The notes below the pieces were generated by a model that made no database searches, was not told where the DNA came from, and saw nothing but the letters and a program-made list of their open reading frames with translations. A DNA stretch of 32,085 nt from an uncultured Oscillospiraceae bacterium (GTDB taxonomy: Bacteria; Bacillota; Clostridia; Oscillospirales; Oscillospiraceae): contig CANQPU010000020.1 of the NCBI GenBank assembly GCA_947625815.1, positions 1-32,085 on the forward strand. Reading direction: 5' to 3'. Positions 656 through 22,665 of this stretch are shown here, piece after piece; the first letter of the stretch is position 1; each line of letters starts with the position of its first letter. The translations under genes were made by a program, and so were the position numbers.

Positions 656-2344
656 ATGGCATATCTGCGGCTGGGCGACCTGCTGATGTCTGTCGGGCTC
701 ATCACCGAGGAGCAGCTTCAGCGCGCCCTGGAAATTCAAAAGACCAATCATAAGCGCCTGGGCGTCGTGCTGGTGGAGGAGGGCATCATCACCGAAAGCC
801 AGCTCATCGAGACGCTGGAGCTCCAGCTGGGCGTGGACTTCATCGACTTATCCAAGGTCCGCATCCCCGTGGAGCTGGCGCAGCTGGTGCCGAAGGCCAT
901 TGCCCGCCGCCACAACGTGGTGCCCGTGAAGCTGGAGCGCGACGAGCTGACGCTGGCCATGGCCGATCCTTTGAACTTCATGGCCATCGAGGACGTGCGC
1001 TCGGCCACCCGCAAGCGCGTCGTCCCCAAGATCGCCACCGCCGCCGCCGTGGACCGGGCCATCGCCACCCTCTACGGCAACGAGGGCGCGGCCCGCGCCA
1101 TGGAGGAGATGAAGGGCGAGACCGGCCGCCGCCGTCCCACCCAGAGCGCCGCGGCGGACACGGTGGAGGAGGAGGTCCAATCCGCCCCCACGGTGAGGCT
1201 GGTCAACTCCATCATCGAGCGGGCCGTCACCGAGCGGGCCAGCGACATCCACCTGGAGCCCCGCAGCGGCGAGATGGTGGTCCGTATGCGTATCGACGGC
1301 CTTCTGCGCCGCGTCCTCTCCGTGCCCTCGGAGCTTCAGGACTCCGTCATCTCGCGCCTGAAGATCATGGGCGGGATGGACATCGCCGAGCGCCGGGTCC
1401 CCCAGGACGGGCGGGCCAACATGCACGTCAAGGGCAGCGAGATCGACCTTCGGCTCTCCACGCTCCCCACCCTCTACGGCGAGAAGATCGCCATCCGTAT
1501 CCTGGACAAATCCGCCCAGCTCCTGGACGCCGCGGCCATCGGCCTGGAGGGGGAGGACCTCCGGCGCTATAAGGAGCTCATCAAAAACTTCAACGGCATG
1601 GTGCTGATCGTGGGCCCCACGGGATCCGGCAAATCCTCCACCATGTACACTATGATCCGCTCCCTCAACACCGAGGAGGTCAACCTTGTGACCCTGGAGG
1701 ACCCCGTTGAGTACGACATCGACGGCGTGAACCAGGTGCAGATCAACGAGAAGGCCGGCATGACCTTCGCCGGGGGCCTCCGCTCCATCCTCCGCCAGGA
1801 CCCGGACATCATCGCCGTGGGCGAGATCCGCGACGGCGAGACGGCGGAGATCGCCATGCGCAGCGCCATCACGGGGCATCTCGTTTTGAGCACGCTCCAC
1901 ACGAATAACGCCCTGTCCGCGCTGGACCGGCTTCTGGACATCGGCGTGGAGCCCTACGTCATCGCCGAGGCTCTGAACGGCATCATCTCCCAGCGCCTGG
2001 TCCGGCGTATCTGCCCGGAGTGCCGGGAGAGCTATACCCCCACCGAGGAGGAGCTGGAGAAGCTGGGCCTTGCCGGACGGAAGGACGTCACCTTCTACCG
2101 GGGCCGCGGCTGTGCCCACTGCTACCACACCGGCTACCGGGGCCGCACCGGCGTCTTTGAGATCCTGATGCTGGACCGCAGGCTCAAGCGCGCCATCACC
2201 GAGAACCGCCACAGCGCCCAGCTGGAGGAGAGCCTGAGCGAGGCCCGGTTCACCTCCCTTTTGGACAACGCCCGGGACCTGGTCCTCCGGGGCGTCACCA
2301 GCGCCGAGGAGGCCATACGCGTTCTCAACACAACAGTTGACTGA
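656..2344 (+). CDS. pilB: Type IV pilus assembly ATPase PilB (GspE family)
   Basis: This is the hexameric cytoplasmic motor ATPase that powers pilus extension by driving PilC to insert pilin subunits. The 562-residue length is normal for the family. An MshEN-type N-terminal domain occupies about residues 5-150; in relatives such domains can bind c-di-GMP, relevant given the c-di-GMP enzyme downstream. Walker A GPTGSGKS is at residues 320-327, followed by the Asp box (LEDPVEYD) and the Walker B region (DPDIIAVGEIRD). A zinc knuckle of the PilB type is present as CPEC (453-456) and CAHC (486-489). The ATG start has a GGAAGGAGGG ribosome site at ideal spacing. It is the first gene of the operon and lies 12 bases before pilT. 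The family assignment is secure. Confidence 0.96.
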   Translation: MAYLRLGDLLMSVGLITEEQLQRALEIQKTNHKRLGVVLVEEGIITESQLIETLELQLGVDFIDLSKVRIPVELAQLVPKAIARRHNVVPVKLERDELTLAMADPLNFMAIEDVRSATRKRVVPKIATAAAVDRAIATLYGNEGAARAMEEMKGETGRRRPTQSAAADTVEEEVQSAPTVRLVNSIIERAVTERASDIHLEPRSGEMVVRMRIDGLLRRVLSVPSELQDSVISRLKIMGGMDIAERRVPQDGRANMHVKGSEIDLRLSTLPTLYGEKIAIRILDKSAQLLDAAAIGLEGEDLRRYKELIKNFNGMVLIVGPTGSGKSSTMYTMIRSLNTEEVNLVTLEDPVEYDIDGVNQVQINEKAGMTFAGGLRSILRQDPDIIAVGEIRDGETAEIAMRSAITGHLVLSTLHTNNALSALDRLLDIGVEPYVIAEALNGIISQRLVRRICPECRESYTPTEEELEKLGLAGRKDVTFYRGRGCAHCYHTGYRGRTGVFEILMLDRRLKRAITENRHSAQLEESLSEARFTSLLDNARDLVLRGVTSAEEAIRVLNTTVD

Positions 2345-2356
2345 CGGAGGGTAAAC

Positions 2357-3409
2357 ATGCTGCCTCTCACTGAGCTCATCGAATGGGCCCGGCAAAACCG
2401 GGGCTCCGACATACACCTGGTCCGCGGCCTTCCGCCCAGAGTCCGTGTGGACGGGTCGCTGAAGAGCGTCCCGGACACGACGCCCCTGACGGAGCAGGAC
2501 TGCGAGACCTACGCGCGGCTCATCGCCGGCCAGGACTATGAGAAGATCAGCCGCATCGGGGAGTTGGACCTGGCCGTCACCTTCCAGGGGGACGTGCGGT
2601 GTCGCGTGAACCTGTTCCGTCAGCAGGGGGCCGTCTCGGCGGCCATCCGCCTCCTGGCGGAGAAGATCCCGGAGCTGGACGCCCTGGGCCTTCCCCCGGC
2701 GGTGCAGGGGCTTCCCGACCTCAACCGCGGGATCGTCCTGGTCACCGGCGAGACGGGATCCGGCAAATCCACCACCCTGGCGGCGCTGCTGGACAAGATC
2801 AATCACACCTCCGACCAGCATATCATCACCCTGGAGGACCCCATCGAGTACATCTACACCCCGGACCGCTGTACCATCAACCAGCGGGAGATCGGCACCG
2901 ACACGGAAAGCTACGCCGACGGCCTCCGGGCCATTTTGCGGGAGGACCCCGACGTCATCCTGATCGGCGAGATGCGGGACCTGGATACCATCGAGACGGC
3001 CCTGACCGCCGCGGAGACAGGCCATCTTGTGTTCGCCACCCTCCACACCAACTCCGCCCCGGAGGCGGTGGATCGCATGGTGGACGTTTTCCCCGAGGGG
3101 CGGCAGAAGCAGATCCGCCTCCAGCTCTCCACCACCCTGATGGCCGTTTTGAGCCAGCAGCTGCTGCCCAGAAAGGACTCGGGGCGCGTGGCGGCCTGCG
3201 AGCTCATGATCGTCACTCCGGCCATCCGCAACCTCATCCGGGAGGGCAAGACCCCCCAGATCGCCTCCTCCATGGCCACCTCGGCGGCGGAGGGGTCGCT
3301 GACCATGGATAACTGTCTCATCTCCCTGTGCCGCAGCCGGGTCATCACTGCGGAGACGGCGCGAAGGGCCGCCCGGGACCCGGAGTACGTCCGCAAAAAC
3401 ACGTTTTGA
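2357..3409 (+). CDS. pilT: Type IV pilus retraction ATPase PilT
   Basis: Retraction motor ATPase, needed for twitching and for pulling DNA or surfaces. At 350 residues it matches PilT rather than the longer PilB. It lacks the large N-terminal domain and zinc cysteines of PilB. Walker A GETGSGKS is at residues 131-138, the Asp box LEDPIEY follows, and the Walker B region reads DPDVILIGEMRD. The PilT signature AIRNLIREGK is present near residue 289, which separates PilT from other GspE-family members. A ribosome site (GGAGGG) precedes the ATG. Its presence beside pilB implies that these pili are dynamic. Confidence 0.96.
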   Translation: MLPLTELIEWARQNRGSDIHLVRGLPPRVRVDGSLKSVPDTTPLTEQDCETYARLIAGQDYEKISRIGELDLAVTFQGDVRCRVNLFRQQGAVSAAIRLLAEKIPELDALGLPPAVQGLPDLNRGIVLVTGETGSGKSTTLAALLDKINHTSDQHIITLEDPIEYIYTPDRCTINQREIGTDTESYADGLRAILREDPDVILIGEMRDLDTIETALTAAETGHLVFATLHTNSAPEAVDRMVDVFPEGRQKQIRLQLSTTLMAVLSQQLLPRKDSGRVAACELMIVTPAIRNLIREGKTPQIASSMATSAAEGSLTMDNCLISLCRSRVITAETARRAARDPEYVRKNTF

Positions 3410-3440
3410 GCCATTTTTCGCCGGATAGGAGGGAAGCCCC

Positions 3441-4475
3441 TTGACTACCTATAAGTACAAGGCCCGGGACGCCGGGGGTTCCTCCGTCAGCGGCGTCGTG
3501 GAGGCGTATGACGAGTACGAGGCCATGGAGCTGGTGCGCCGCTCCTGCCCGGTCGTGGAGGACCTGACGCCCGTCAAGCAAAAGCGCAGGATCAACATCG
3601 ACCTGAACGAGCCCCTGTGGGTGGAGGACAAGAGCCTGGCGCTGGTGGCCAGCCAGTTCTCCATCATGCTCCGGGCGGGACTGCCCATGAGCCGGGTGGT
3701 GGAGCTCATCGCCAACCAGACCACGGATAAGCTGATGAAAAAGATCCTCACCGCCTGCGCCGCCGACGTGGCCTCCGGCCACTCCCTCTCCAGGAGCCTG
3801 GAGAAGAGCGGCAAGAAGATCCCCGCTGTATTTATCGAGTCCGTCCGCTCCGGCGAGGAGTCCGGCACGCTGGAGGAGTCCTTCGATTCCCTGAAAACCT
3901 ACTACGAGCGGGCCCACAAGGTAAAAGCCAAGGTCCGCGGGGCCCTTACATATCCCATCGTCCTCCTTCTGCTGGCCGCCGTGGTCATCGGCATCGTCAT
4001 GGTGATGCTGGTGCCGCGCCTCACCAATATGCTGGTCTCCACCGGGGGCGAGATGCCCGGGACCACCAGGGCCCTTATCGCCATCAGCTCCTTTTTCCAG
4101 CATTACTGGGCGCTGATGCTCATCGTCCTGGCCGCCGCGGGCCTGGGCATCGTGGCCTGGAACCGCACGGAGGAGGGCAAGATCAAGATCTCCTCCGTCC
4201 GTATGCGCCTGCCCGTTCTGGGCCGCGTGGCGAGGATGAACACCGCCGCCCAGATCGCCAACACCATGTCCACGCTCCTGGGCTCCGGGCTTCCCGTGAC
4301 GAAGGTCACCGGCATCGTCAGCCGCGTCCTGGATATGCGCTGTGTGGGCGTGGAGCTGGCAAAGGGCGTGGCGAAGCTGGAGACAGGCCGGACCCTGGCG
4401 GAGGTCCTGTCCGACGTGAAAAATCTGCCGGAAATGCTGAAAGAAGCTCACCAAAAAGGGCTTCACCCTGGCTGA
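3441..4475 (+). CDS. pilC: Type IV pilus inner-membrane platform PilC, C-terminally truncated
   Basis: PilC/GspF platform protein that couples the motor ATPases to pilin insertion. The start is TTG at 3441 with AGGAGGG seven bases upstream; the N-terminus TYKYKARDAGG is typical. The first T2SSF domain is about residues 60-170, with membrane helices near 170-192 and 223-240. The second T2SSF domain begins near residue 258 but stops at 344 residues where about 400 is normal. The last roughly 60 residues, including the third membrane helix, are missing. The final residues (after LPEML) are not PilC-like: they are the out-of-frame reading of a prepilin leader. The gene is therefore broken by a deletion or recombination, or the assembly is faulty here. 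As read, the product is probably non-functional. Confidence 0.9.
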   Translation: MTTYKYKARDAGGSSVSGVVEAYDEYEAMELVRRSCPVVEDLTPVKQKRRINIDLNEPLWVEDKSLALVASQFSIMLRAGLPMSRVVELIANQTTDKLMKKILTACAADVASGHSLSRSLEKSGKKIPAVFIESVRSGEESGTLEESFDSLKTYYERAHKVKAKVRGALTYPIVLLLLAAVVIGIVMVMLVPRLTNMLVSTGGEMPGTTRALIAISSFFQHYWALMLIVLAAAGLGIVAWNRTEEGKIKISSVRMRLPVLGRVARMNTAAQIANTMSTLLGSGLPVTKVTGIVSRVLDMRCVGVELAKGVAKLETGRTLAEVLSDVKNLPEMLKEAHQKGLHPG

Positions 4476-4833
4476 GCTGCTCATCGTCGTGGCTATCATC
4501 GCCGTCCTGGTCGCCATCGCCGCCCCGCTGTTCCTGGGGGCGCTGGATGACGCTAAAGATGCTGTACAACAAGCCAACATCCGCTCGATCAAGGGGCTTG
4601 CAACAGCGGAGATACTCAGTAACTGGAGTAAATACGGAAAATTGTCGAGTGGTGACGGTATTCCCACATCTTGGTCTGTAACTGCGTCATGGGATGAAGC
4701 CGGCAACATTACAATAACATCCATTACACCGGGTGAGGAGACCGCAGCGAAAGATGGGGATGTGAGCACTACGGGTGGTACGACAACCGTGACCGGTATG
4801 GTTCTGGTGGGTATTAAGTCACCGACGACCTGA
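4434..4833 (+). pseudogene. First type IV pilin gene, frameshifted at its start
   Basis: In the frame beginning at 4441 the sequence encodes KKLTKKG, then FTLAELLIVVAI, a textbook class III leader with cleavage after Gly and Glu at mature position 5, followed by the pilin helix and a body of about 115 residues. No usable start exists in this frame: a TGA (4438-4440) lies directly upstream and the next candidate is a GTG at 4489, inside the helix. The ATG at 4434 would fit perfectly (MLKKLTKKG) if one A of 4440-4442 were removed. That same ATG is also a Met codon of pilC, so the two genes meet at a shared ATGCTGA. The distal part is AT-richer than the operon. It is a broken major-pilin candidate, or an intact one hidden by an assembly error. 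Confidence 0.75.
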
Positions 4834-4882
4834 CGCTATAAGGGATTCCCTGTAAAATGCTGTTCAGATAGGGGGATGGCGA

Positions 4883-5329
4883 ATGAGACCTAAAACAAAT
4901 CGCAAAGGCTTCACACTTGCAGAGCTTTTGATTGTTGTGGCCATCATCGCAATTCTTGTAGCTATTGCGTTTCCAATCTACACAGCAGCAATGGACAATG
5001 TAAAGGAAACTGTCAAACAGGCCAACATTCGCGCTACCAAATCCGCGGGGATAGCATATATTGCCAATCACAGCGAATTACTTTGGGATGTGCTGAATGA
5101 AAAAGAGGGTCATGACTGTTGGCTCGTTGAAGCCGATGTTTATGAGGATGGATCCGTCAATAATTTATTGGCTTTTGGATTAGATTCAGAAAACCCCGGT
5201 GAGTTTGGCATGTTATTTTCTGAAGGCATCAGTGAGCCATATTGTGAATGGCTTGATATGTCCAGTGAGGGAAAAGAGTCATTTTACCTTGTGGCTTTAA
5301 TCCTGTTTCCTACCGATTTACCTGCATAA
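4883..5329 (+). CDS. Type IV pilin (second pilin gene)
   Basis: A 148-residue prepilin. Leader MRPKTNRKG is cleaved after Gly9, and mature Phe+1 and Glu+5 (FTLAE) are present, followed by the hydrophobic helix that packs the pilus core. The body is acidic, with three cysteines (DCWLV and YCEWL regions) that could form a disulfide. The ribosome site AGGGGGATGG precedes the ATG. The N-terminal 40 residues resemble the broken pilin upstream (LDDAKDAVQQANIR against MDNVKETVKQANIR), so the two are paralogues. Codon use is clearly AT-richer than pilB-pilT or pilD, a sign of recent transfer or cassette exchange. With its neighbour frameshifted, this is the best candidate for the working major pilin. 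Confidence 0.9.
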   Translation: MRPKTNRKGFTLAELLIVVAIIAILVAIAFPIYTAAMDNVKETVKQANIRATKSAGIAYIANHSELLWDVLNEKEGHDCWLVEADVYEDGSVNNLLAFGLDSENPGEFGMLFSEGISEPYCEWLDMSSEGKESFYLVALILFPTDLPA

Positions 5330-5355
5330 CCCCCCGTTTGGGTTGCTCCGGGGGG
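5330..5355 (+). terminator. GC-rich hairpin between pilin and pilD
   Basis: CCCCCCG (5330-5336) pairs with CGGGGGG (5349-5355) around a 12-base loop directly after the pilin stop codon; a further C/G palindrome follows to about 5366. There is no T tract, so an mRNA-stabilising or attenuating hairpin that keeps pilin above pilD expression fits better than a true terminator. Confidence 0.35.
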
Positions 5356-5438
5356 CCCCCGGGGGCGGGGGCGAGGCGCCTGACAGGCGGGCGTTTCGCC
5401 CCTGTCCCCGAAAACTGTATCTACGGGAGGCGCGTGAC

Positions 5439-6224
5439 GTGTCCTTTTCCGATTTGCCCGTCTCCCTTCGGGCATATTTTCTGTGTCTGTCCCTGCTCAT
5501 CGGCGCCTGCGCGGGCAGCTTTTTAAACTGCGCGGCCCTGCGCCGGCCCCGCGGCGAAAAGCTCCCCCGGGGCCGCTCCCACTGCCCGGAGTGCGGCCAC
5601 GTTCTGGGGCTTTTGGACCTGGTCCCCGTTTTCAGCTGGCTCTTCCTTGGGGGGAAGTGCCGGTACTGCAAGGCGAAGATCTCCCCCCGCTACCCCGTGA
5701 CGGAGCTCGTCTCGGCCGGCGCTTTCGCCCTGACCTTTTGGCGCTTCGGGCTCACGGTCCTGACGGCGGAGCACTGGGTACTTTTCGGGCTTTTGCTGTA
5801 TTTGAGCCTTGTGGACCTGGACTCCATGGAGCTCCCCGACGGGCCGGTGCTGGCCGCGGCGGTGCTGTTTTTGACCACGCTGCCCTTTGCCGAAAGGCCC
5901 CTGTCCAGGCTTCTGTGGGGTCTGGCGGCGGCGGTCCTCTACGGCGGCGGGCTTCTCCTCTTATCGCTCATCATGGACAAGGTCCTGGGGCGCGAGAGCC
6001 TGGGTGGGGGAGACGTGAAGCTCCTGGCGGCCCTGGCCCTGTGGTGCGGCCCCGGGCCCGGCATCTTTCTCATCCTGCTGGCGGCGCTTTTGGGCCTTCT
6101 CTTCGCCGCCGTCTTAAAAAAGCGGGGCCCCTTCCCCTTCGGCCCGGCCCTCTCCCTGGCGGCCCTCCCCGTGATCCTGGCGGGGGAGCGGCTCTGGGGG
6201 CTCTATCTTGGCCTTTTTTCGTGA
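5439..6224 (+). CDS. pilD: Prepilin peptidase / N-methyltransferase PilD
   Basis: Membrane aspartyl protease that removes the leader of all prepilins encoded here and methylates the new N-terminus. The start is GTG at 5439, with GGGAGG eight bases upstream; an earlier in-frame TTG (5343) has no ribosome site and lies in the GC-rich hairpin region. The N-terminal domain has the four-cysteine zinc motif of the methyltransferase part (C49, C52, C74, C77). The peptidase domain has the two aspartate motifs: VDLDSMELPDG near residues 125-133 and GGGDVK with Asp192. Multiple hydrophobic helices fill the rest. Length (261 residues) is normal. It should process both the pilins and the giant and minor prepilin-like proteins. 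Confidence 0.95.
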   Translation: MSFSDLPVSLRAYFLCLSLLIGACAGSFLNCAALRRPRGEKLPRGRSHCPECGHVLGLLDLVPVFSWLFLGGKCRYCKAKISPRYPVTELVSAGAFALTFWRFGLTVLTAEHWVLFGLLLYLSLVDLDSMELPDGPVLAAAVLFLTTLPFAERPLSRLLWGLAAAVLYGGGLLLLSLIMDKVLGRESLGGGDVKLLAALALWCGPGPGIFLILLAALLGLLFAAVLKKRGPFPFGPALSLAALPVILAGERLWGLYLGLFS

Positions 6225-6236
6225 GGAGGTAAGAAA

Positions 6237-7214: not shown

Positions 7215-7225
7215 GGGGGGAGAGT

Positions 7226-8352: not shown

Positions 8353-8374
8353 ACGCCCGCTGTGAGGTGACGGT

Positions 8375-11728: not shown

Positions 11729-11753
11729 CCCTTGACAGGAGGACGCGCTTACG

Positions 11754-12509: not shown

Positions 12510-12523
12510 GGAGGGGGCAGAAG

Positions 12524-12826
12524 TTGAAAAAGCTGAAAAACCGCCGGGGGGAGACCCTGGCCGAGGCGCTGGTCTCCGTGCTGATCGTGGCCCTCTCCGC
12601 CCTCCTTTTGGCGGCGATGACCACCGCCGCCGGGAATATGGACGCCGCCGCCCGCCGGCGCGACGAGGAATTTTACGAGGCCCTGACGGCGGTGGAGACG
12701 AAGACCGGCGTGCCCTCCATGGGGCAGATCACCATAACGGGAGACGTCAACGTCACCGAGGACGTGGAGGTCTACTCCTCCGGCGGTCTTACCGTCTACG
12801 CCCCGTCGGGGAGCGCGGGGGGTTGA
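12524..12826 (+). CDS. Small minor prepilin (PilV-like)
   Basis: A 100-residue prepilin starting at TTG (12524) with AAGGAGGGGG upstream; longer readings have no ribosome site. Leader KKLKNRRG is followed by ETLAEALVSVLIVALSALLL. Mature position 1 would be Glu instead of the usual Phe or Met, while Glu+5 is kept. The rest is short, with a Thr/Val-rich beta-like tail. By position and size it is a PilV/GspI-like minor pilin. Confidence 0.75.
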   Translation: MKKLKNRRGETLAEALVSVLIVALSALLLAAMTTAAGNMDAAARRRDEEFYEALTAVETKTGVPSMGQITITGDVNVTEDVEVYSSGGLTVYAPSGSAGG

Positions 12827-12830
12827 CGCG

Positions 12831-13295
12831 ATGAAAAAGAGGATCCATCAGAGAAAGGGCTTTACCCTGACGGAGACATTGGCGGCCGTGGCCATCGTGG
12901 CGATGGTGGCCTGCGCCGGGGCCGCCGTGACCACCTCCGTCTTCACCGTCCGCGTCCATATGACGGAGGCGGCGGACGCCTCCACGCTGGGCTCCACCCT
13001 CCTTCAGGAGCTGGCCAATGAGCTGCGCTTCGGGCAGAACATCGTGGTATCCGACCACAGCGTGACGCTGGACAGCGCCGCCTACGGCCATGCCGCCATT
13101 GCCGTCACCGACGGCAGGGTGACGGCGGGAGGCGGCCCCATCCTGGCCGACGCCGCCTACGGGGGGCTGTCCGTCACGACGCTTGACTTCATAGGCGGCG
13201 ACGGCTCCATCGGGATACAGCTCGCGCTCTCCGGGTGCGACGGGGAGCTCTGGACCGGGGAGCTTTCCGTGACGCCCCTGAACGGGCATCAATAA
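12831..13295 (+). CDS. Minor prepilin (PilW/GspJ-like)
   Basis: A 154-residue prepilin. Leader MKKRIHQRKG is cleaved after Gly10, then FTLTE with Glu+5 and a hydrophobic helix (AVAIVAMVACAGAAVTTSVF). The head contains the TEAADASTLGSTLLQELANELRFG helix-type pattern seen in PilW/GspJ proteins that begin with helix and continue as a beta sheet. It is the last pilin gene of the operon and is followed after 36 bases by the c-di-GMP regulator. Confidence 0.82.
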   Translation: MKKRIHQRKGFTLTETLAAVAIVAMVACAGAAVTTSVFTVRVHMTEAADASTLGSTLLQELANELRFGQNIVVSDHSVTLDSAAYGHAAIAVTDGRVTAGGGPILADAAYGGLSVTTLDFIGGDGSIGIQLALSGCDGELWTGELSVTPLNGHQ

Positions 13296-13331
13296 CGGCA
13301 AAAAGTGGCGGGGGACCTCGCCGGAGGGAAC

Positions 13332-15377
13332 ATGGAAAAGGAAAAAATACTGATCGTTGACGACTCCGAAATGAACCGCTCCATCCTGGCGGATATGCTG
13401 GCCGACTATGAGATCATCGAGGCCGAGGATGGCGTTGAGGCCGTGGAGATCCTGTCCCGGCGGCTCCCGGAGCTGTCGCTGATGCTTCTGGACATCGTGA
13501 TGCCAAGGCTGGACGGCTTTGGCGTTTTGGAGAAGATGAAGGAGCGGGACTGGATCGAAAAGCTGCCCGTCATCATCATCTCCGCCGAGAACGGCTCCAA
13601 TCATGTGGAGCGGGCCTATGAGCTGGGGGCCACGGACTTTATCGCCCGGCCCTTTGACAGCCTCATCGTCCAGCGCCGCGTGGTGAATACGCTCCTTCTG
13701 TACGCCAAGCAGAAGCGCCTTATCCGCATCGCCGAGGAGCAGGTCCGGGAGAAGGAGCGCTACAACGACCTGATGATCGACATTTTGAGTCAGCTCGTGG
13801 AATTTCGAAACGGCGAGAGCGGCCTGCACATCAAGCACGTCCGGCGCCTCACCCAGCTCTTCCTCACGCGCCTGGAGGCCAGGACGGACGCCTACCCCCT
13901 GACGGAGGGGGAGATCTCCCTCATATGCACGGCCTCGGCCCTCCACGACATCGGCAAGATCGCCATCGACGACAAGATCCTCAATAAGCCGGGACGCCTG
14001 ACGCCGGAGGAGTACGAGATCATGAAGACCCACTCCGCGCTGGGGGCGGACATGCTCAGAAAGATCGTGGAGCACCAGAACGAGCCGCTCATTCAAAAGG
14101 CCGCCGAAATTTGCCGCTGGCACCACGAGCGCTGGGACGGCGGAGGCTACCCGGACGGGCTCCGGGGGGATGCTATCCCCATCTCCGCCCAGGTGGTGGC
14201 CCTGGCGGACGTCTACGACGCGCTGACCAGCAAGCGGGTGTATAAGCCGGCCTACTCCCATGAGCAGGCCGTTCGAATGATCCTGGGCGGCGAGTGCGGG
14301 GCCTTCAACCCGCTTTTGCTGGAGTGCATATCCGAAAACGACCCCCAGCTTCAAAACGCCCGCTGGGACGAGAGCATCGATCAACCGGGGAAGACCAGGT
14401 CCCGGGCAATTTTGGAGGAGCTCCACGACGAGAGCGGCGCCTCCCGCAGGACCCTGAGCCTCTTGGAGAAGGAGCGCATGAAAAACAGCGTCCTTGCCTC
14501 CATGGCCGAGACCGTCCAATTTGAGTACACACCCGATCCGCCCATGATTACCATGTCCCCCTGGGGCGCGCAAAAGCTGGGCCTTCCCGAGATCATCATG
14601 GATCCCAAAAACAGCGACGAGCTCTTTCGCGTCCTGGATCGGGAATACTGGGAGGAGATGTCCCGATTTATGCGCGCCTCCACGCCGGAGGACTCCGAAA
14701 AGCGCATAGACTGCCCGCTCCACTACGGCGGCGAGACCCGCTGGGCCCGCATTTTGCTGCGGACCATCTGGACGGACGACGAGGATCCCGTGCTGGAGAG
14801 CGTCATGGGGACGGTGCTGGACATCCACGACTCCCGGGTCCGGATAGAGGAGCTGGCGCGCCGATCCACCCAGGATTCCCTGACGGGGCTTCTGAACCGG
14901 GCCAGCGCCAGGGAGCGCATCGAGCGGCGCATGGCGGAAAAGCCCGAGGACCATTTCGCCCTGTGCGAGATCGACATCGACGACTTCAAAAAGCTGAACG
15001 ACACCTTTGGCCATATGTTCGGCGACCAGGTGCTCCGGGAGCTCAGCCGGCGCATGAAGCACAGCGTCCGAAGCTCCGATATTTGCTGTCGCGCCGGCGG
15101 GGAGGAGTTCTTCCTCTTCCTGGACTACAACGACCAGATCGAGAGCACCGTTGACCGCATCTACAAGAGCCTGTGCTTTGAGATAGAGGGACTGAACATC
15201 ACCGTTTCCATGGGCGTGGCGCTGTCCGTCACCGAGGGGCCGGATTACACCAGGCTCTATCGGGCGGCGGATCTGGCGCTCTATAAGGTCAAAAAATCGG
15301 GAAAAAAGCATTACCGCTTTTATGAACAGGCCATGTCCGACGCACTTGAGGACGTGGCCGGAGAAGAAGGGAGATAA
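13332..15377 (+). CDS. REC-HD-GYP-PAS-GGDEF response regulator, c-di-GMP synthesis and breakdown
   Basis: A 681-residue cytoplasmic regulator. The start is ATG at 13332 with GGAGGG upstream. A receiver domain (1-125) has the acidic pair at 10-11 and phospho-acceptor Asp54. The HD-GYP phosphodiesterase domain follows: HDIGK at 205-209, a later THSALGADML, HHERWDGGGYP at 264-274 and LADVYDALTSKR, so the metal ligands look complete. A PAS-like segment covers about 375-505. The GGDEF domain begins at DSLTGLLNR, with the active-site motif GGEEF at 589-593 and an inhibitory-site RSSD exactly five residues before it (580-583). Both opposing c-di-GMP activities therefore look intact. Phosphorylation through the adjacent HPt and kinases may select between them (inference). 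Confidence 0.92.
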   Translation: MEKEKILIVDDSEMNRSILADMLADYEIIEAEDGVEAVEILSRRLPELSLMLLDIVMPRLDGFGVLEKMKERDWIEKLPVIIISAENGSNHVERAYELGATDFIARPFDSLIVQRRVVNTLLLYAKQKRLIRIAEEQVREKERYNDLMIDILSQLVEFRNGESGLHIKHVRRLTQLFLTRLEARTDAYPLTEGEISLICTASALHDIGKIAIDDKILNKPGRLTPEEYEIMKTHSALGADMLRKIVEHQNEPLIQKAAEICRWHHERWDGGGYPDGLRGDAIPISAQVVALADVYDALTSKRVYKPAYSHEQAVRMILGGECGAFNPLLLECISENDPQLQNARWDESIDQPGKTRSRAILEELHDESGASRRTLSLLEKERMKNSVLASMAETVQFEYTPDPPMITMSPWGAQKLGLPEIIMDPKNSDELFRVLDREYWEEMSRFMRASTPEDSEKRIDCPLHYGGETRWARILLRTIWTDDEDPVLESVMGTVLDIHDSRVRIEELARRSTQDSLTGLLNRASARERIERRMAEKPEDHFALCEIDIDDFKKLNDTFGHMFGDQVLRELSRRMKHSVRSSDICCRAGGEEFFLFLDYNDQIESTVDRIYKSLCFEIEGLNITVSMGVALSVTEGPDYTRLYRAADLALYKVKKSGKKHYRFYEQAMSDALEDVAGEEGR

Positions 15378-15381
15378 CGAT

Positions 15382-15738
15382 ATGACACTTCAGGAATGCT
15401 ATGCCGCTATGGGCGGGGACTACGACGACGCCATGGGGCGCCTTCGCAGCGAGAGACTTTTGCAGAAATTCGTCCTGAAATTCCTGGACGACGGGAATTT
15501 CAAGCTCCTGTGCCAGTCCCTGGCGGACGGACGGCAGGAGGAGGCGTTCCGGGCTGCCCACACCATCAAGGGCATGTGCCAGAATTTGAGCTTCCGGGCC
15601 CTCGGAAAGTCCTCCAGCCGCCTGACGGAGGCTCTGCGCGCCGGCGAGAGCGACACCCGGGAGCTTTTGGAGTGCGTCATGGAGGATTACCGCGTCACGG
15701 AGGAGGCCATCAGGGCCTATCAGGCCGGCCTCAACTGA
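15382..15738 (+). CDS. Stand-alone histidine phosphotransfer (HPt) protein
   Basis: A 118-residue all-helical protein with the HPt signature AAHTIKGMCQNL; phospho-accepting His is residue 60. The start is ATG at 15382, five bases after the upstream stop, with GAAGGGAG upstream. It carries no other domain. HPt proteins relay phosphate between receiver domains; here it lies between one response regulator and two hybrid kinases whose own C-termini are receivers with no HPt. It is the natural link from kinase REC to the c-di-GMP enzyme REC. Confidence 0.92.
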   Translation: MTLQECYAAMGGDYDDAMGRLRSERLLQKFVLKFLDDGNFKLLCQSLADGRQEEAFRAAHTIKGMCQNLSFRALGKSSSRLTEALRAGESDTRELLECVMEDYRVTEEAIRAYQAGLN

Positions 15739-15763
15739 TTTTTGAGAGAGGGAGTGTACCGGG

Positions 15764-18334
15764 ATGAAAAAAAGGGGCGGTTGGAAATCGTGGAATATCT
15801 ACGCGACCCTGCTGGTGACCGTGGTCATCGTCGCCCTCTTTGTGGCGGCGTTTCTGGAGATCAACGCGTCCATCAAGGAGCGGGCCATCGGGAGGATGGA
15901 GGAGGGCGTCAACACCGTCATTCAGGAGGTCACGTCCAAATTTGAGCGGGACAGCCGGGTGCTCAACGCCACGGCGGACATCATCTCCACGGTCAACAAT
16001 TTTGACGTTGAGAACACCATCGAGATGATGAAGACGGTGTCGCCGCTTTTAGAGACCATGCTGATACGCCTTTTGCTGCCTGACGACCGTATCCTGGTGG
16101 TCAGCACCGAGAGCTCGGACACCGCGCGGCTGGACGCCCTCTCCTTTGAGAAGGAGGCCGCCCTGGGGGAGCACGTCTCGGACCGGGTGTACAGCTCCTC
16201 CAACAGTATGCCCGTCCTTCGCCACTTTGTCCCCGTCATGCAGGACGGGGAGATCGCGGCGCTCCTTTACGGGATCACCCTTTTGGAGGACCTGCCCAAG
16301 ACCCTCAATATCGAGAACATCTATAATGCCAGCGCCAGCGTCTACATCGTGGACACCAAGACCGGCGACTTCCTCCTGGATACCTACCACAATGAGCTGG
16401 GGAACATCCGGGACTTCGAGGCCCGGGAGACCAACGGCGAGACCACCTGGGAGGAGTACACCGACAACCTCCTCTCCCTGAAGACCGGCTATGTGGTGTT
16501 CAAGACCCACAAGACGGGGGGCTGGGAGTATCTCTACTACGCTCCCGCCGGGATCAACGAGTGGGCCATCGCCGTCTCCGTGCCGGAGCGGGAGGCGTTT
16601 TCCAGCGTCTACGCGGTGCGGAAGATCTTCATGGTCATCGGCGTCATCATGATCGTGGCTCTGGCGGCGTACTATGTGTTCATCTATTACAGGGCCCGCC
16701 GCGCCATCGACGAGATCGTGGAGCGGGCGGTCTTGGAGGAGAAGCTCAAAAAGGCCGAGGCCGCCGAGCGGGCCAAGAGCACCTTCCTCTCCAACATGTC
16801 CCACGACATCCGAACGCCCATGAACGCCATCATCGGCTTTACCGTGCTGGCGGACGCCAATATCGACAACAAGCCCCGGGTGCAGGAGTATTTGTCGAAG
16901 ATCCTGTCCTCCAGCAACCACCTGTTGAGCCTTATCAACGACGTGCTGGACATGAGCCGGATCGAGTCCGGGAAGCTCAACATCGACGAGAAGCCCTGCT
17001 CCATCTCCGACATCTTCCGGGATATGCGGAACATCATCCAGACCCAGATGCAGTCCAAGCAGCTCAACTTCTTCATGGACACCATGGATGTGGTGGACGA
17101 GAAGATCTACTGCGACAAGCTGCATATCAATCAGGTGCTTCTGAATCTCCTTTCCAACGCCATCAAGTTCACGCCTCCCGGGGGCTCCGTGTCCCTGACC
17201 GTCCAGCAAAAGCCGGGAGCGCCCAGGGGTTACGGCAGCTACGAGATCCGGGTCAAGGACACCGGCATCGGCATGGACGAGGAGTTCGTCCAGCACATCT
17301 TCGAGCCCTTTGAGCGGGAGCGCAACACCACCGTCAGCGGCATCCAGGGCACGGGCCTTGGAATGGCCATCACCAAGAACATCGTGGACACCATGGGCGG
17401 CAGTATCTCCGTCAACACCGAGCGGGGGAAGGGCACGGAGTTCATCATCAACTTCACCTTCCGGCTCCAGAACGACGTGGAGGAGAGCCTCCACATCAAG
17501 GAGCTCATGGGCGTCCGGGGCCTGGTGGTGGACGACAACTTCACCACCTGCGACAGCGTCACCAAGATGCTGACCCAGATCGGTATGCGGGCCGAGTGGT
17601 CCATGCACGGCCAGGAGGCGGTGCTCCGGGCCCGTCAGGCCGTGGAGATGGGCGACGCGTTTTACGCCTACATCATCGACTGGGCCCTCCCGGACTTGAG
17701 CGGCCTTGAGGTGGTGCGCCAGATCCGCTCCCTGGCCGGGGACACCGTGCCCATCATCATCCTCACCGCCTACGACTGGACGACCATTGAGGACGACGCC
17801 AGGATGGCGGGCGTCACCGCCTTTTGCAATAAGCCCCTGTTCCTCTCGGAGCTGAGGGACACGCTGATGACCGCCCTTGGAAAGACGGACCTCCCCGACA
17901 TCAAGCGCCAGGTGGTCGATCCCCTGGAGGACATCCGGGGCTCCCGGCTCCTTTTGGTGGAGGACAACGAGCTCAACCGGGAGATCGCCCAGGAGCTTTT
18001 GGAGGAAAACGGCTTCAAGGTGGAGACCGCCTGCGACGGCAGCGTGGCGGTGGATATGGTCCGGGCCTCCGCCCCGGGGTACTACTCTCTGGTGCTGATG
18101 GACGTGCAGATGCCGGTGATGGACGGCTACGAGGCGTCTAGGGCCATAAGGGCCCTGGAAAACCCGGAGCTGGCCGCCGTGCCCATCATCGCCATGACCG
18201 CCAACGCCTTCAGCGAGGACCGGCAGAAGGCCCTGGACAGCGGCATGAACGCCCATGTGGCAAAGCCCATCAATTTGGACAACCTCATCCAGACCATGGT
18301 CAAATATCTGGAGAAGAAGAAAACAGATGACTGA
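15764..18334 (+). CDS. Transmembrane hybrid histidine kinase with two receiver domains
   Basis: An 856-residue sensor kinase. Membrane helices at about 12-32 and 287-309 enclose an extracellular domain of about 250 residues, of a size that fits a double-Cache sensor. A HisKA helix carries SHDIRTPMNAI, with His347. The HATPase domain has the N box NLLSNAIKF (about 460), DTGIGM and GTGLGMAI (about 529). Two receivers follow: Asp639 in IIDWALPDLSG and Asp780 in LMDVQMPVMDGYEASR. There is no fused HPt, so phosphate should leave through the separate HPt gene just upstream. The next kinase overlaps or abuts this gene. Confidence 0.93.
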   Translation: MKKRGGWKSWNIYATLLVTVVIVALFVAAFLEINASIKERAIGRMEEGVNTVIQEVTSKFERDSRVLNATADIISTVNNFDVENTIEMMKTVSPLLETMLIRLLLPDDRILVVSTESSDTARLDALSFEKEAALGEHVSDRVYSSSNSMPVLRHFVPVMQDGEIAALLYGITLLEDLPKTLNIENIYNASASVYIVDTKTGDFLLDTYHNELGNIRDFEARETNGETTWEEYTDNLLSLKTGYVVFKTHKTGGWEYLYYAPAGINEWAIAVSVPEREAFSSVYAVRKIFMVIGVIMIVALAAYYVFIYYRARRAIDEIVERAVLEEKLKKAEAAERAKSTFLSNMSHDIRTPMNAIIGFTVLADANIDNKPRVQEYLSKILSSSNHLLSLINDVLDMSRIESGKLNIDEKPCSISDIFRDMRNIIQTQMQSKQLNFFMDTMDVVDEKIYCDKLHINQVLLNLLSNAIKFTPPGGSVSLTVQQKPGAPRGYGSYEIRVKDTGIGMDEEFVQHIFEPFERERNTTVSGIQGTGLGMAITKNIVDTMGGSISVNTERGKGTEFIINFTFRLQNDVEESLHIKELMGVRGLVVDDNFTTCDSVTKMLTQIGMRAEWSMHGQEAVLRARQAVEMGDAFYAYIIDWALPDLSGLEVVRQIRSLAGDTVPIIILTAYDWTTIEDDARMAGVTAFCNKPLFLSELRDTLMTALGKTDLPDIKRQVVDPLEDIRGSRLLLVEDNELNREIAQELLEENGFKVETACDGSVAVDMVRASAPGYYSLVLMDVQMPVMDGYEASRAIRALENPELAAVPIIAMTANAFSEDRQKALDSGMNAHVAKPINLDNLIQTMVKYLEKKKTDD

Positions 18335-18356
18335 CAGCCGAAAGGAGAACGCGGAC

Positions 18357-21278
18357 GTGAAGAAAAAAAGCAAATGGTTCCTGCCTTCACTGCTCATGGC
18401 CGCCGTCTGCGCCATGGCGCTCCTTATTGGCGTGTGGTACTTCCGGTACATATCCGATCAGATCTACGAGGACAGTACCGGCCACCTGCAGGAGATCTAC
18501 GGCCAGGTCAACCGCACCTTCGGAAGCTTTATGGAGCGCAACTGGGGGCTTCTGGAGAGCTGGGGCGACGCCCTCCCCAACGGCACCGGCGGGGACGACA
18601 GCTATATCCCAAATCTCGTGGCCGAGGAGAAGGAGCGCTGGAATTTCAGTAAATTCCTGTTCCTCTCCGCGGACGAGCGGTATATGACCCCGGACGGGGA
18701 GGAGCGCAAGGTGGACCTGGGGGACGCCTGGGTCAGCCTCACCCGGGACGGGGAGCCCATTATGGCGGGGGAATTCACCTCTTCCGGCCAGGCGGTGACG
18801 GTTTTTGCCGTGCCCACCAAGCCCGGGGAGTACCGGGGCTTTCCCTATACGGCCATCGCCGTCAGCTACACCAACGAGGACATTCTGAAGTCCCTGAAGG
18901 TCAACGCCTACGAGGACACGGCCGAGAGCTTCGTGGTGTACGGCGACGGGAGCGTGCTTCTCTCCTCCAGAGCCGGAGGCACCGTATTCACCAACTATTT
19001 TACGTATCTGGACGCCGCCTCCGACCTGGACGACAGGGCCATGGAGGAGCTCCGGGAGGATTGGGCCGCCGGCACGGCGGGCCTTGCCCGGTGCGAGATC
19101 AACGGCGAGGACAACTGCATCCTCTACCAGCCGCTGACCTACCGCGGGTATATGCTTTTGAGCGTGGTGCCCCTGGACGCCGTGGGCAAGGGCTTCATGC
19201 AGGTGCAGAAGATCACCGTCCTCTTCCTGGGGGCCGTGTTCCTCCTGGTGAGCTGCGCCATGGGGATGCTCCTCCTCATCCGCGGGTACAAGCAGGCCAG
19301 CCGCAATAAGACGGAGCTTGCCTACCGGGAGCGGATGTTCGACGTCCTCTCCAACAGCGTGGAGGACATCTTCCTCATGCTGGACACGGTCACCTACCGG
19401 GTGAACTACGTCAGCCCCAATATTGAGCGGCTCCTGGGCATCCCGGTGGAGGAGGCCCGGTCCGATATCCGCGTCATGGCCAAGTGCATGGTGGACGACG
19501 ACACCGTCATCCCCGCCGACAAGATCCAGGCGATCCCCTTGAACGGCAGCCTCCACCAGTGGTTCGAGTACCTCCACCAGATCACCGGCGAGCTCCGCTG
19601 GTATCGCACCACGGTGTACCGCATGGAGCTGGAGGGCATGGAGAAGTACATCGTCGTCCTCTCCGACCGCACCCAGGAGCGCCAGATGAACAGGACCCTC
19701 CAGGAGGCCCTGGACACCGCCAAGAGCGCCAACGAGGCCAAGAGCAACTTCTTATCCAACGTCTCCCACGACATTCGCACGCCCATGAACGCCATCATGG
19801 GCTTCTCGACCCTGCTGGAGCGGGACGCCGGCGACCCCGTCAAGGTCCGGGAGTACACCCACAAGATCACCGCCTCCGGCCAGCACCTTTTGAGCCTCAT
19901 CAACGAGGTCCTGGACATGAGCAAGATCGAGAGCGGCAAGACCTCCCTGAACGCCGAGGTCTTCTCCCTCCCGGAGATGCTGGAGGAGCTGAGCATCATC
20001 ATCCTCCCCCAGGCCCGGGCGAAAAAGCAGATCTTCAATATGCGCGTCCACGGCTCGCCGCCGGAGCGGATCATCGGCGACAAGCTGCGGCTCAGCCAGA
20101 TCCTCATAAACCTTCTCTCCAACGCCGTGAAATATACGCCGGAGGAGGGGAAGGTGGACTTCTCCATCAGCGCCCTTTCCGGCTCCGCCCCCCAGTACGC
20201 CAAGCTGCGCTTCACCGTCAAGGACAACGGCATCGGCATGAGCGAGGAATTCCAGAAGCAGATCTTCACCCCCTTCAGCCGTGAGATCAGCTCCGTCACC
20301 AACAAGATCCAGGGCACGGGCCTGGGAATGGCCATCACCAAGAACCTCCTGGACCTCATGGGCGGCATCATTGAGCTGGAGAGCGCCCCCGGAAAGGGGA
20401 GCACCTTCACCGTGGAGCTGTCCTTCGCCCTCCCCGAGGAGGAGAGCGGCGACGACTGGTACAGGCAGAGGACGTGGCGGATCCTGGTGGCCGACGATGA
20501 GCCGGACGTCTCCGAGACCATCCGGGAGATGATGACCGGCACGGGCGTGTATGTGGAGACCGCCTGCGACGGCACCTCCGCCGTGAAGGCCGCCGCCCGG
20601 GCCCACGAGGAAGGCAGCGCCTTCGACATCGTGCTCCTTGACTGGAAGATGCCGGACATGGACGGCGTGGAGACAGCCAAACGGATCCGGGGGAGCGTGG
20701 GCCGCGACATCCCGATCCTGGTGCTGACCTCCTACGACTGGAACGAGATCGAGGACGACGCCAGGAGCATTGGGATCAGCGCCTTCATGCCTAAGCCCTT
20801 CTTCGTCTCCACCTTCTGGAACACCATCAAGCCCATGTTTGAGACGGACAGGACTCCGGAGGAGGACGGCGAGTCGCTGGGGACCATGGATGGCCTTCGG
20901 TTCCTGGCGGCGGAGGACAACGAGCTCAACGCCGAGCTCCTCACCGAGATGCTGGGCATAGAGGGGGCTCTTTGCGAGCTGGCCCTCAACGGGCAGGAGG
21001 CTGTGGAGAAGTTCAGCGCCTCGGAACCCGGCTATTTCGATATGATCCTGATGGACGTGCAGATGCCGGTGATGAACGGCTACGAGGCCACCCGGAAGAT
21101 ACGTTCCCTCCCGCGCCCCGACGCGGCGGCCATCCCCATCGTGGCCATGACCGCCAACACCTTTGCCGAGGACGTCCGGCGGGCGCTGGAGTCCGGCATG
21201 AACGGGCATCTGGGCAAGCCCATTGACATGAACGAGGTCCGCAAGACCGTGGCGCGGCTGACAGGCCGGCGCGAATAA
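18357..21278 (+). CDS. Second transmembrane hybrid histidine kinase, PAS-containing, with two receiver domains
   Basis: Start chosen as GTG at 18357 because AAAGGAG lies nine bases upstream; an in-frame ATG at 18327 overlaps the previous stop but has no good ribosome site. The 973-residue product has membrane helices at about 8-31 and 287-311 with an extracellular sensor between, then a PAS domain (about 321-441). HisKA follows with SHDIRTPMNAI and His471, then HATPase (NLLSNAVKY about 585, DNGIGM, GTGLGMAI about 653). Receivers carry Asp762 (LLDWKMPDMDG) and Asp900 (LMDVQMPVMNGYEATR). It is a paralogue of the kinase before it, with an added PAS. The sensor domains differ, so two signals may enter the same relay. 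Confidence 0.92.
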   Translation: MKKKSKWFLPSLLMAAVCAMALLIGVWYFRYISDQIYEDSTGHLQEIYGQVNRTFGSFMERNWGLLESWGDALPNGTGGDDSYIPNLVAEEKERWNFSKFLFLSADERYMTPDGEERKVDLGDAWVSLTRDGEPIMAGEFTSSGQAVTVFAVPTKPGEYRGFPYTAIAVSYTNEDILKSLKVNAYEDTAESFVVYGDGSVLLSSRAGGTVFTNYFTYLDAASDLDDRAMEELREDWAAGTAGLARCEINGEDNCILYQPLTYRGYMLLSVVPLDAVGKGFMQVQKITVLFLGAVFLLVSCAMGMLLLIRGYKQASRNKTELAYRERMFDVLSNSVEDIFLMLDTVTYRVNYVSPNIERLLGIPVEEARSDIRVMAKCMVDDDTVIPADKIQAIPLNGSLHQWFEYLHQITGELRWYRTTVYRMELEGMEKYIVVLSDRTQERQMNRTLQEALDTAKSANEAKSNFLSNVSHDIRTPMNAIMGFSTLLERDAGDPVKVREYTHKITASGQHLLSLINEVLDMSKIESGKTSLNAEVFSLPEMLEELSIIILPQARAKKQIFNMRVHGSPPERIIGDKLRLSQILINLLSNAVKYTPEEGKVDFSISALSGSAPQYAKLRFTVKDNGIGMSEEFQKQIFTPFSREISSVTNKIQGTGLGMAITKNLLDLMGGIIELESAPGKGSTFTVELSFALPEEESGDDWYRQRTWRILVADDEPDVSETIREMMTGTGVYVETACDGTSAVKAAARAHEEGSAFDIVLLDWKMPDMDGVETAKRIRGSVGRDIPILVLTSYDWNEIEDDARSIGISAFMPKPFFVSTFWNTIKPMFETDRTPEEDGESLGTMDGLRFLAAEDNELNAELLTEMLGIEGALCELALNGQEAVEKFSASEPGYFDMILMDVQMPVMNGYEATRKIRSLPRPDAAAIPIVAMTANTFAEDVRRALESGMNGHLGKPIDMNEVRKTVARLTGRRE

Positions 21279-21300
21279 AAGAAACATGGGAGCTGATTTC

Positions 21301-22545
21301 ATGAAAAAGGCCATCACGGTCCTCCTGGCGGCGTGCCTTCTCCTGACGGCGCTGGCTTCCTGCCAAAAGGCGGAGGAGGAGAGCTATGACCTTACCATCG
21401 TGGGAAAGTCCGTGGATATGGACAACATATACATGACCCGGATATTTGACCTTTTTGAGGAGAAGACCGGGAAGAAGATCAAGCTCATCACCTTTGAGGA
21501 CTCGGCTTTTGAGGACTCCTCGGCGAAGCTCTTTGAAAAAGGGGAGGTGCCGGACATCTTCGTCCACTTCCACAACGCGGACCTTGACCGCTTCAACGTG
21601 GAGGAGAACTTCCTCTACCTCAACGATCAGGAGTGGGTGGAGGACCTGACGGACGGGGCCCTGGCGTACAGCGTTGACCGGGACGGGAACCTGCTGGGCC
21701 TCCCCTTTTGGGAGAGCTCCGTCTCCGGCTGCTACTACAACAAGAAGATCCTGGACAAATACGGCCTCCGTCCGGCCTCCAATCAGTCGGAATTCAACCT
21801 CCTGTGCGAGATTTTGGAGGAGTCCGGCTGTACCCCCATCTGCTGGCCGGCCAACGGGTGCGCCTGGATGCTCCAGTTCGCCCTGGACCCGGTTTTCGCC
21901 GACGACCCGGACCTTCTGGAGAAGCTCAACGCCGGCCAGATCCGCTACGCCGACATCCCCGAGGTCACAGACGCGGTGCGGTGGATCTATGAAGCCGCCC
22001 AAAAGGGCTGGTTCGGCGACGCCTATCTGGAGACGGGCTGGGACGGGATAAGCCCCGCTTTAAGCTCCGGCGACGCGGTGATGACCTTCATCTGGGACAC
22101 CTGGTTCGACACGGACTTCAAGGACGGCAAATACTCCGCCGGGGACTTCGCCCTGATGCCCGCCTTCCTCAACACCGCCAGGGACGGGACCTACGAGGGC
22201 GGGAACCTCAATCTGATGATGGTCAACAAGAACAGCCCCAACTGCCAGACGGCCCTGGAGTTCCTGAGCTTCTGCGCCGACCCGGAAAACTACAACATCG
22301 CCTTCGCGGGCATCTCCACGGTCAGCGTTTTCAAGGGGCAGACCACCAACATCCAGTCGAAGATGGTGACGGACGCCGCGGACTCCATCGCCCGGTACGG
22401 GCGCGTCTCCACCGCCTCCACCAGGATCGTGGGCTACAACGGCGACGCCGTGGCCAACGCCATCTACGCCCTTTTGAGCGGCCGGGTGGACGTGGCCGGC
22501 TGTGTTGAGCAGCTGGACCGGGACAGGCTGGCCAACGCCGGCTGA
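21301..22545 (+). CDS. Extracellular solute-binding lipoprotein (family 1)
   Basis: A 414-residue lipoprotein. The start is ATG at 21301; an in-frame ATG at 21286 has a poorer context. The signal peptide ends in lipobox LASC, with Cys21 lipidated. The mature part has the two-lobe binding-protein pattern: DLTIVGKSVDMDNIYM, EEKTGKKIKLITFED, GEVPDIFVHFHNADLDRF, then GLPFWESSVSGCYYNKKILDKYGL. The family binds sugars or similar solutes for ABC importers, but no permease or ATPase is next to it. It closes the signalling block directly behind two kinases, so a sensory partner role for a kinase extracellular domain is likely. The ligand cannot be named from sequence. Confidence 0.88.
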   Translation: MKKAITVLLAACLLLTALASCQKAEEESYDLTIVGKSVDMDNIYMTRIFDLFEEKTGKKIKLITFEDSAFEDSSAKLFEKGEVPDIFVHFHNADLDRFNVEENFLYLNDQEWVEDLTDGALAYSVDRDGNLLGLPFWESSVSGCYYNKKILDKYGLRPASNQSEFNLLCEILEESGCTPICWPANGCAWMLQFALDPVFADDPDLLEKLNAGQIRYADIPEVTDAVRWIYEAAQKGWFGDAYLETGWDGISPALSSGDAVMTFIWDTWFDTDFKDGKYSAGDFALMPAFLNTARDGTYEGGNLNLMMVNKNSPNCQTALEFLSFCADPENYNIAFAGISTVSVFKGQTTNIQSKMVTDAADSIARYGRVSTASTRIVGYNGDAVANAIYALLSGRVDVAGCVEQLDRDRLANAG

Positions 22546-22569
22546 CAGAATGACATAAAATCCCGCGGG

Positions 22570-22590
22570 AAAAAGGCGGCTGCCTTTTTT
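22570..22590 (+). terminator. Intrinsic terminator at the end of the pilus/signalling block
   Basis: AAAAAGGC (22570-22577) pairs with GCCTTTTT (22582-22589) around a four-base loop, with a T run at 22585-22590. It lies 25 bases after the binding-protein stop. A CCCGCGGG palindrome sits just upstream (22562-22569). Confidence 0.65.
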
Positions 22591-22636: not shown

Positions 22637-22665
22637 TTGTCGAGACGGCAAAAATGGTGTATAAT
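22637..22665 (+). promoter_or_regulatory. Sigma-A-type promoter for the giant surface protein
   Basis: A -35 TTGTCG (22637-22642) and a perfect -10 TATAAT (22660-22665) are separated by 17 bases. It lies between a terminator and the ATG at 22731, giving a leader of about 60 bases. Confidence 0.7.

Follow-up and report, generated by a model that had tools for sequence, protein, structure and literature searches.

We analyzed a contig of 32,085 nucleotides from an uncultured Oscillospiraceae bacterium (CANQPU010000020.1), in which the genes of a putative multistep phosphorelay directly follow a type IV pilus cluster. This whole stretch (hereafter the window) is contig C20 of a draft assembly (G000) of 1.9 Mb in 35 contigs, which is 96% complete. 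The relay genes encode a response regulator (RR) with a receiver (REC) and enzyme domains for cyclic di-GMP (c-di-GMP), a free histidine phosphotransfer protein (HPt), two hybrid histidine kinases (HK1 and HK2) and a solute-binding protein (SBP). The best explanation for the locus as a whole, which we favor with moderate confidence, is that a convergent phosphorelay uses c-di-GMP to steer the motor of the type IV pili. The convergence of both kinases on one relay is probable, and we lean towards the motor ATPase PilB as the main c-di-GMP target.

In the proposed mechanism, HK1 would read a signal through its own extracellular dCache domain, and the dCache domain of HK2 probably reads the neighboring SBP, with or without a ligand that is probably sugar-like. 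In both kinases, phosphate would pass from the histidine to the kinase's own REC, then to the common free HPt (His60) and finally to Asp54 of RR. Phosphorylation of RR would shift the balance between its HD-GYP domain, which is predicted to degrade c-di-GMP, and its GGDEF domain, which is predicted to make it. The MshEN domain of PilB would read the result, and pilus extension would be changed, the sign of this change being likewise a prediction.

The original prediction described RR, HPt, HK1, HK2 and SBP as adjacent and co-directional, and the Pfam assignments and spacing confirm this. The gaps are 36 bp between pilW and RR, 4 bp between RR and HPt, 25 bp between HPt and HK1, 22 bp between HK1 and HK2 and 22 bp between HK2 and SBP; the first large gap (185 bp) lies 3' of SBP. 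The residues named for phosphotransfer are in place, namely the HPt histidine at residue 60 and the receiver aspartate at residue 54. The only output receiver of the set is, as claimed, fused to c-di-GMP enzymes: RR carries the HD-GYP catalytic motifs (HDIGK at 205, HHE..GGGYP at 264) together with GGEEF at 589 and an RxxD I-site at 580, the sequence expected of a bifunctional HD-GYP/GGDEF protein, and probably a PAS-like linker. Orthologues of RR were counted where they were met beside HPt or pil genes. Asp54 is present in 32 of 33 RR sequences (the remaining one is cut by a contig end), and all 33 have intact HD and GYP motifs. Seven lack the GGDEF domain; the other 26 keep GG[DE]E[FY], and RxxD is found in 25. 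The receiver and HD-GYP are accordingly the core, and the cyclase is optional outside the genus. The constancy of HD-GYP also suggests that c-di-GMP breakdown is the central activity under regulation. His60 of HPt is conserved in 39/39 homologues.

Each kinase contains HisKA, HATPase_c and two Response_reg stretches, and HK2 is likely to hold a PAS-like linker as well. The kinase histidine and both receiver aspartates are kept in 9/9 HK1 and 17/17 HK2 sequences; the locus therefore holds the hybrid kinase acceptors, the HPt histidine and the terminal receiver aspartate of a multistep phosphorelay. The predicted structures of the two sensors (predicted local distance difference test, pLDDT, 79.7 for HK1 and 76.9 for HK2) both resemble double-Cache domains known from kinases and chemoreceptors (best E values near 1e-9 and 1e-10). 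HK1 and HK2 are 48% identical in the kinase core and 49% in the last receiver, but just 21% in the sensors, a pattern that points to two inputs and one exit. The two receivers within one kinase are only 28-31% identical, and the closer likeness of the last receivers between the kinases is what would be expected if the same HPt meets both.

A protein-family census of the genome covered Hpt, GGDEF, EAL, PilZ and MshEN, each of which was matched in 5 to 8 of 14 control genomes. Neither kinase has an Hpt match in the Pfam scan, and the free HPt of the window is the single Hpt match in the whole assembly, so the claim that the only HPt is free-standing holds genome-wide. As the assembly has a single Hpt domain, either both kinases use it or neither does. 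GGDEF was found in two proteins, RR and one protein on contig C28, while EAL and PilZ were not found in the 96%-complete assembly by the profile search. The protein on C28 (L157, 3987-5777; 596 aa) has an intact GGDEF motif and no RxxD site just ahead of it.

PilB was predicted to carry an MshEN domain, and it holds the sole MshEN match in the assembly. Its two 24-residue half-motifs (RLGxx..LxxxLxxQ; residues 5-28 and 34-57) are separated by the 5-residue linker of MshEN receptors. The second half-motif is perfect, and the first differs conservatively at a single place, with Met instead of L/V/I at position 7. PilB thus appears to be the only recognizable protein receptor of c-di-GMP in this genome. 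Retention of the motifs did not clearly follow the presence of HPt in relatives: the HPt-negative genomes G010 and G012 keep the motifs and the HPt-negative G002 has lost one.

To place the locus among relatives, we used 60 related genomes (G labels) and an order-wide sample of 394 genomes. HPt was matched in 21/60 relatives (E <= 1e-3) at 22 places. The RR orthologue was met in the window and in 15 relatives, beside HPt in 14 and by the pil cluster in G012. It lies directly 3' of the minor pilins in 8/15 (G006, G012, G015, G017, G018, G022, G025 and G031), where the pil cluster spans a contig break in G031 (exact 62-bp overlap) and in G022 (exact 77-bp overlap); in G011 and G013 its position is not readable because the contigs end. 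In the order sample, HPt was found in 30/394 genomes (E <= 1e-20) at 32 places, 20 of which were read in context, and a REC-HD-GYP regulator adjoins HPt in 17 of these 20. The relatives appear to support a functional link of the relay to the pilus.

SBP and HK2 form a second unit. SBP was found in 14/60 relatives with HK2 directly 5' in all 14 (in G011 only part of it), and the pair mostly lies apart from RR-HPt-HK1. The SBP lipobox cysteine 21 is invariant in 17/17 aligned homologues. Scanning species genomes yielded 239 confirmed relatives, and in the best 80 SBP loci among them (L209-L288) a kinase open reading frame (ORF) lies directly upstream in 80/80 (median distance -3 bp); the HK2 sensor is covered in 77, and in the other three the contig begins too late to show it. 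Among the 117 ORFs adjoining SBP in these 80 loci, ABC permeases are outside the 25 most frequent families and can therefore number no more than 2. By the scans made, no permease gene was found in the 32-kb contig. The near-constant kinase pairing and the rarity of permeases indicate that SBP is probably, in most of its family, a former transport protein that was adopted as a sensor. All 80 of these loci come from records named 'Lapin' (French: rabbit), and the habitat is probably the rabbit gut; the records carry the labels Oscillospiraceae, Lachnospiraceae, Monoglobus, Gemmiger and others. In two near-identical Monoglobus-labeled genomes (L218 and L221) luxS lies two genes 3' of SBP (12449-12907 in each), probably by chance. 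The system was not found on plasmids, where only matches of <60% identity (18 records) were obtained.

The five genes had been read as one fixed module, which the relatives rule out: RR-HPt-HK1 and HK2-SBP are two separable units, which come together in the window. The adjacency of RR to HPt and that of HK2 to SBP both recur beyond chance in the gene-neighborhood survey. The full order RR-HPt-HK1-HK2-SBP was seen in the window, in G032 and in L215, where RR and HK1 are in pieces. In G028, one contig ends in HK2-SBP and another opens with SBP-RR-HPt-HK1, with a 56-bp end overlap containing 3 mismatches; both modules are probably joined in this genome and in L215. HPt is found at most 10 kb from HK2-SBP, in several orientations, at 8 of the best 80 loci (L214, which is G032, L215, L245, L247, L268, L273, L282 and L284). 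About 0.5 would be expected by an estimate that assumes one HPt per 2.2-Mb genome and ignores kinship; if three HPt are assumed instead, the chance probability is 1e-4. On the SBP tree, a quick search in which 30/78 inner branches are weak, this proximity requires at least 7 changes. Pil genes flank HK2-SBP in L239, L279 and L226. HPt and SBP co-occur in 13/14 SBP-positive relatives and in 9/11 SBP-positive genomes of the order sample (Fisher test, kinship ignored).

Several findings weigh against control of the pilus by this relay. The RR module is away from the pili in 5/15 relatives (G019, G032, G033, G045 and G028): other genes lie upstream of RR in G019 and G033 and SBP does in G028, while the RR of G032 has another pil-like set roughly 4.6 kb ahead of it. 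No recognizable pil cluster was seen at any of the 20 HPt places read in the order sample. Parts of the circuit also occur without others, since G012 has pil-RR without an HPt match, G010 has SBP, HK2 and pilB without an HPt match and G022 has pil-RR-HPt-HK1 without an SBP match. The PilB motifs kept in G010 and G012 suggest that the motifs can persist without this relay, and PilB may take c-di-GMP from other sources. The genome also has a second GGDEF protein. The pairing of SBP with HK2 also has exceptions. The order sample gave 9 additional SBP loci, and HK2 is upstream in just 5 of them; the homologue in L153 is preceded by a kinase with another sensor, that in L156 (38% identical) has a kinase downstream, that in L152 has no kinase over the 3.5 kb before its contig ends and that in L155 (57% identical) is followed by two apparent sugar permeases (7342-10668; judged by eye from the sequence starts, without Pfam). 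The N-terminus of the L153 kinase (10179-13445) resembles, by eye, a fused binding-protein domain. SBP as an invariable kinase partner was therefore rejected on the evidence of L152, L153 and L155, and the permeases of L155 suggest a transporter origin for the sensor SBP. Finally, pilC is truncated in this assembly. The earlier interpretation is partly supported. RR does follow the pili, here and in eight relatives, though not in five others. The phosphorelay set with its one free HPt is self-contained only in part, since in G022 HK1 does without any SBP homologue and in G012 RR stays behind the pili with no HPt match.

These findings leave room for other explanations. The relay may be real while its c-di-GMP output goes to other targets such as matrix, adhesins or riboswitches, the pilus genes being mere co-transcribed neighbors. 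The loci of relatives and of the order sample in which the RR module is off the pili fit this view, as does a 2,202-aa surface protein encoded 185 bp 3' of SBP. We nevertheless consider it unlikely, as the genome has no PilZ and one MshEN, RR recurs after pilW in 8 relatives and HK2-SBP lies beside pil genes in three loci. It is also possible in principle that SBP is part of a transporter for sugars, with HK2-SBP regulating carbohydrate use, in which case the row would be an accretion of two unrelated units and HK1 alone would feed HPt. SBP is indeed of the ABC sugar-binding kind, the L155 homologue is followed by apparent permeases, and in most relatives HK2-SBP is on another contig or far from RR-HPt-HK1. 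However, permeases are nearly absent beside SBP, the pairing with HK2 is near-constant in the best 80 of 239 loci, and HK2-SBP repeatedly co-localizes with HPt or pil genes in differing orientations. In addition, HK2 requires an HPt and the genome has one. We regard this explanation as improbable.

Two further possibilities concern the output itself. RR could affect the pilus through physical contact, its HD-GYP or GGDEF serving as a scaffold, and not via diffusible c-di-GMP. HD-GYP proteins that work by contact are known (RpfG of Xanthomonas), and the genomic linkage is close. On the other hand, the catalytic motifs are intact in every RR read and those of PilB are near-perfect, which argues that the chemistry is retained, and we consider contact very improbable. 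Alternatively, the pilus may have decayed in this genome, leaving a circuit without an output. PilC resembles its relatives only up to about 4439 and then enters the prepilin gene, with about 70 C-terminal residues gone, and the first prepilin has no in-frame ATG, GTG or TTG ahead of its leader motif. This defect may be a deletion or a misassembly; local misassembly is possible in a draft contig, and the remaining pil genes, like those of the relay, have open frames and are conserved. We regard decay as improbable. Control of the pilus motor through c-di-GMP by a convergent relay remains our preferred reading.

The pilus cluster (656-13295) runs in a single direction upstream of the relay genes and contains PilB, PilT, PilC, PilD, PilM and prepilins together, as in type IVa pilus clusters (Table 1). 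The large GLUG prepilin, which has an N-methylation motif, has same-place homologues with open frames of >4,500 aa (L026 1-13581, L029 1-14265, L036 1-14028) and is possibly a giant pilus-tip adhesin. Downstream of SBP, a hairpin with a T-run may end the transcription unit, but 15/200 shuffles fold equally well (z -1.55) and it is absent from the terminator scan list. Promoter-like sites number 4 against 2.2 +/- 1.4 expected, the best at 22637-22665; neither this site nor the hairpin is strong evidence. The surface-like protein (22731-29339) has a collagen-like stretch below the Pfam cut-off. No Rfam match was found in the window, which rules out riboswitch control at this locus, and nine pil stretches of relatives had no Rfam match except a tRNA. 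Genome-wide searches gave no c-di-GMP-I or c-di-GMP-II riboswitch; their controls likewise matched nowhere, so these searches carry no weight and absence from the genome is not claimed.

Table 1. Features of the pilus and relay gene row in the window.
Feature	Position	Strand	Basis or remark
PilB, extension ATPase with MshEN	656..2344	+	PF05157; NF053729 67.5 bits, cut-off 38
PilT-like retraction ATPase	2357..3409	+	PF00437; identity to same-genus PilT 78-81%
PilC, platform protein of 344 aa, truncated here	3441..4475	+	relatives 404-427 aa
First prepilin	4438..4833	+	class III leader motif readable; listed ORF from 4489
Second prepilin, intact	4883..5329	+	PF07963
PilD, prepilin peptidase	5343..6224	+	PF06750, PF01478
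PilM	6237-7214	+	PF11104
PilN	7226-7810	+	position, similarity to relatives and conserved order; no Pfam match
PilO	7807-8352	+	position, similarity to relatives and conserved order; no Pfam match
Large prepilin with GLUG motif, 1,117 aa	8375-11728	+	order before RR conserved
Three minor-pilin-like genes	11754-12509, 12524-12826, 12831-13295	+	order before RR conserved
RR, REC-HD-GYP-GGDEF	13332..15377	+	Pfam Response_reg, HD/HD_5, GGDEF
Free HPt, His60	15382..15738	+	PF01627, 36.5 bits, cut-off 24.6
HK1: dCache-like sensor, HisKA, HATPase, REC, REC	15764..18334	+	Pfam and sensor model
HK2: dCache-like sensor, HisKA, HATPase, REC, REC	18357..21278	+	Pfam and sensor model
SBP, sugar-type solute-binding lipoprotein	21301..22545	+	PF13416, PF01547 above cut-off
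Hairpin and T-run, possible end of transcription unit (weak)	22569..22590	+	folding against shuffles

The original prediction did not recognize the set as a described system. No paper describing this arrangement was found in the open-licence PubMed Central (PMC) literature, where analogues only were met, although each principle is known elsewhere; the parts are of known kinds, and what seems particular is the compactness of the circuit and its recurring pairing with the pilus. It is possible, as a more tentative proposal, that this is a near-complete circuit in one operon, in which a transportable pair of SBP lipoprotein and dCache hybrid kinase, shared by several families of Clostridia from one gut habitat, feeds into a core of RR, HPt and HK1. 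A single HPt would then serve the whole cell, PilB would be the single receptor, and an extracellular, probably sugar, signal would directly set pilus extension.

In Pseudomonas aeruginosa, several hybrid kinases converge on HptB. The HptB network acts through HsbR/HsbA on the diguanylate cyclase HsbD and affects type IV pili and twitching (PMC5085249). The window shares with it an HPt common to hybrid kinases, a proposed c-di-GMP output and type IV pili. Unlike that network, whose output passes from HsbR to a separate membrane cyclase, the window, from a relative of the Clostridia, has REC and both c-di-GMP enzymes in one protein, and this regulator is encoded in line with the pilus genes and an SBP gene. 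In the LuxPQ-LuxU-LuxO system of Vibrio, a binding protein works with a hybrid kinase, and further hybrid kinases converge on one free HPt, as proposed here. The Vibrio output is a transcription factor, LuxP belongs to another binding-protein family and the periplasmic domain of LuxQ has another architecture, whereas the window's output would be c-di-GMP. The LuxQ_Vibrio model matches the two kinases in the kinase core with 310.5 and 275 bits, below its cut-off of 1200, which places them outside the LuxPQ family.

Sensor kinases activated by an SBP whose gene is adjacent include AgtS/AruS of P. aeruginosa and TorT-TorS (PMC11113362). The SBP gene adjoins the kinase gene here as well, but the SBP of the window is a lipoprotein in a Clostridia relative, with a dCache kinase, a common HPt and a predicted c-di-GMP output. 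Taken together, the proposed circuit would operate like the HptB network, with a receptor branch resembling LuxPQ or TorTS. MshEN receptors are described by a tandem 24-residue motif with a 5-residue linker (PMC5013675). PilB resembles the MshE, PilB and PilF motors in this layout, and its structural relatives include MshE (5htl) and Thermus PilF; its first motif has Met where L/V/I is usual, and its binding of c-di-GMP is a prediction. In Clostridioides difficile, type IV pili are under a c-di-GMP riboswitch (Bordeleau 2015, as cited in PMC6916266). Control of type IV pili by c-di-GMP in Clostridia is proposed here too; in contrast to C. difficile, it would act on the motor protein.

The RpfC-RpfG system of Xanthomonas also connects a hybrid kinase to a REC-HD-GYP regulator and has links to pilus motility. 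RpfC has its own HPt and RpfG lacks GGDEF, whereas in the window the HPt is free and RR carries GGDEF. Networks of c-di-GMP usually comprise dozens of enzymes and receptors, which makes the assignment of partners hard. This small genome seems to have one Hpt domain, two GGDEF proteins and one recognizable protein receptor, and all except one GGDEF protein are in the pilus gene row. If our reading is right, signal, relay, enzyme and motor could be reconstructed from about six proteins, and gut Clostridia would route an extracellular solute to pilus behavior at the motor and not via a riboswitch.

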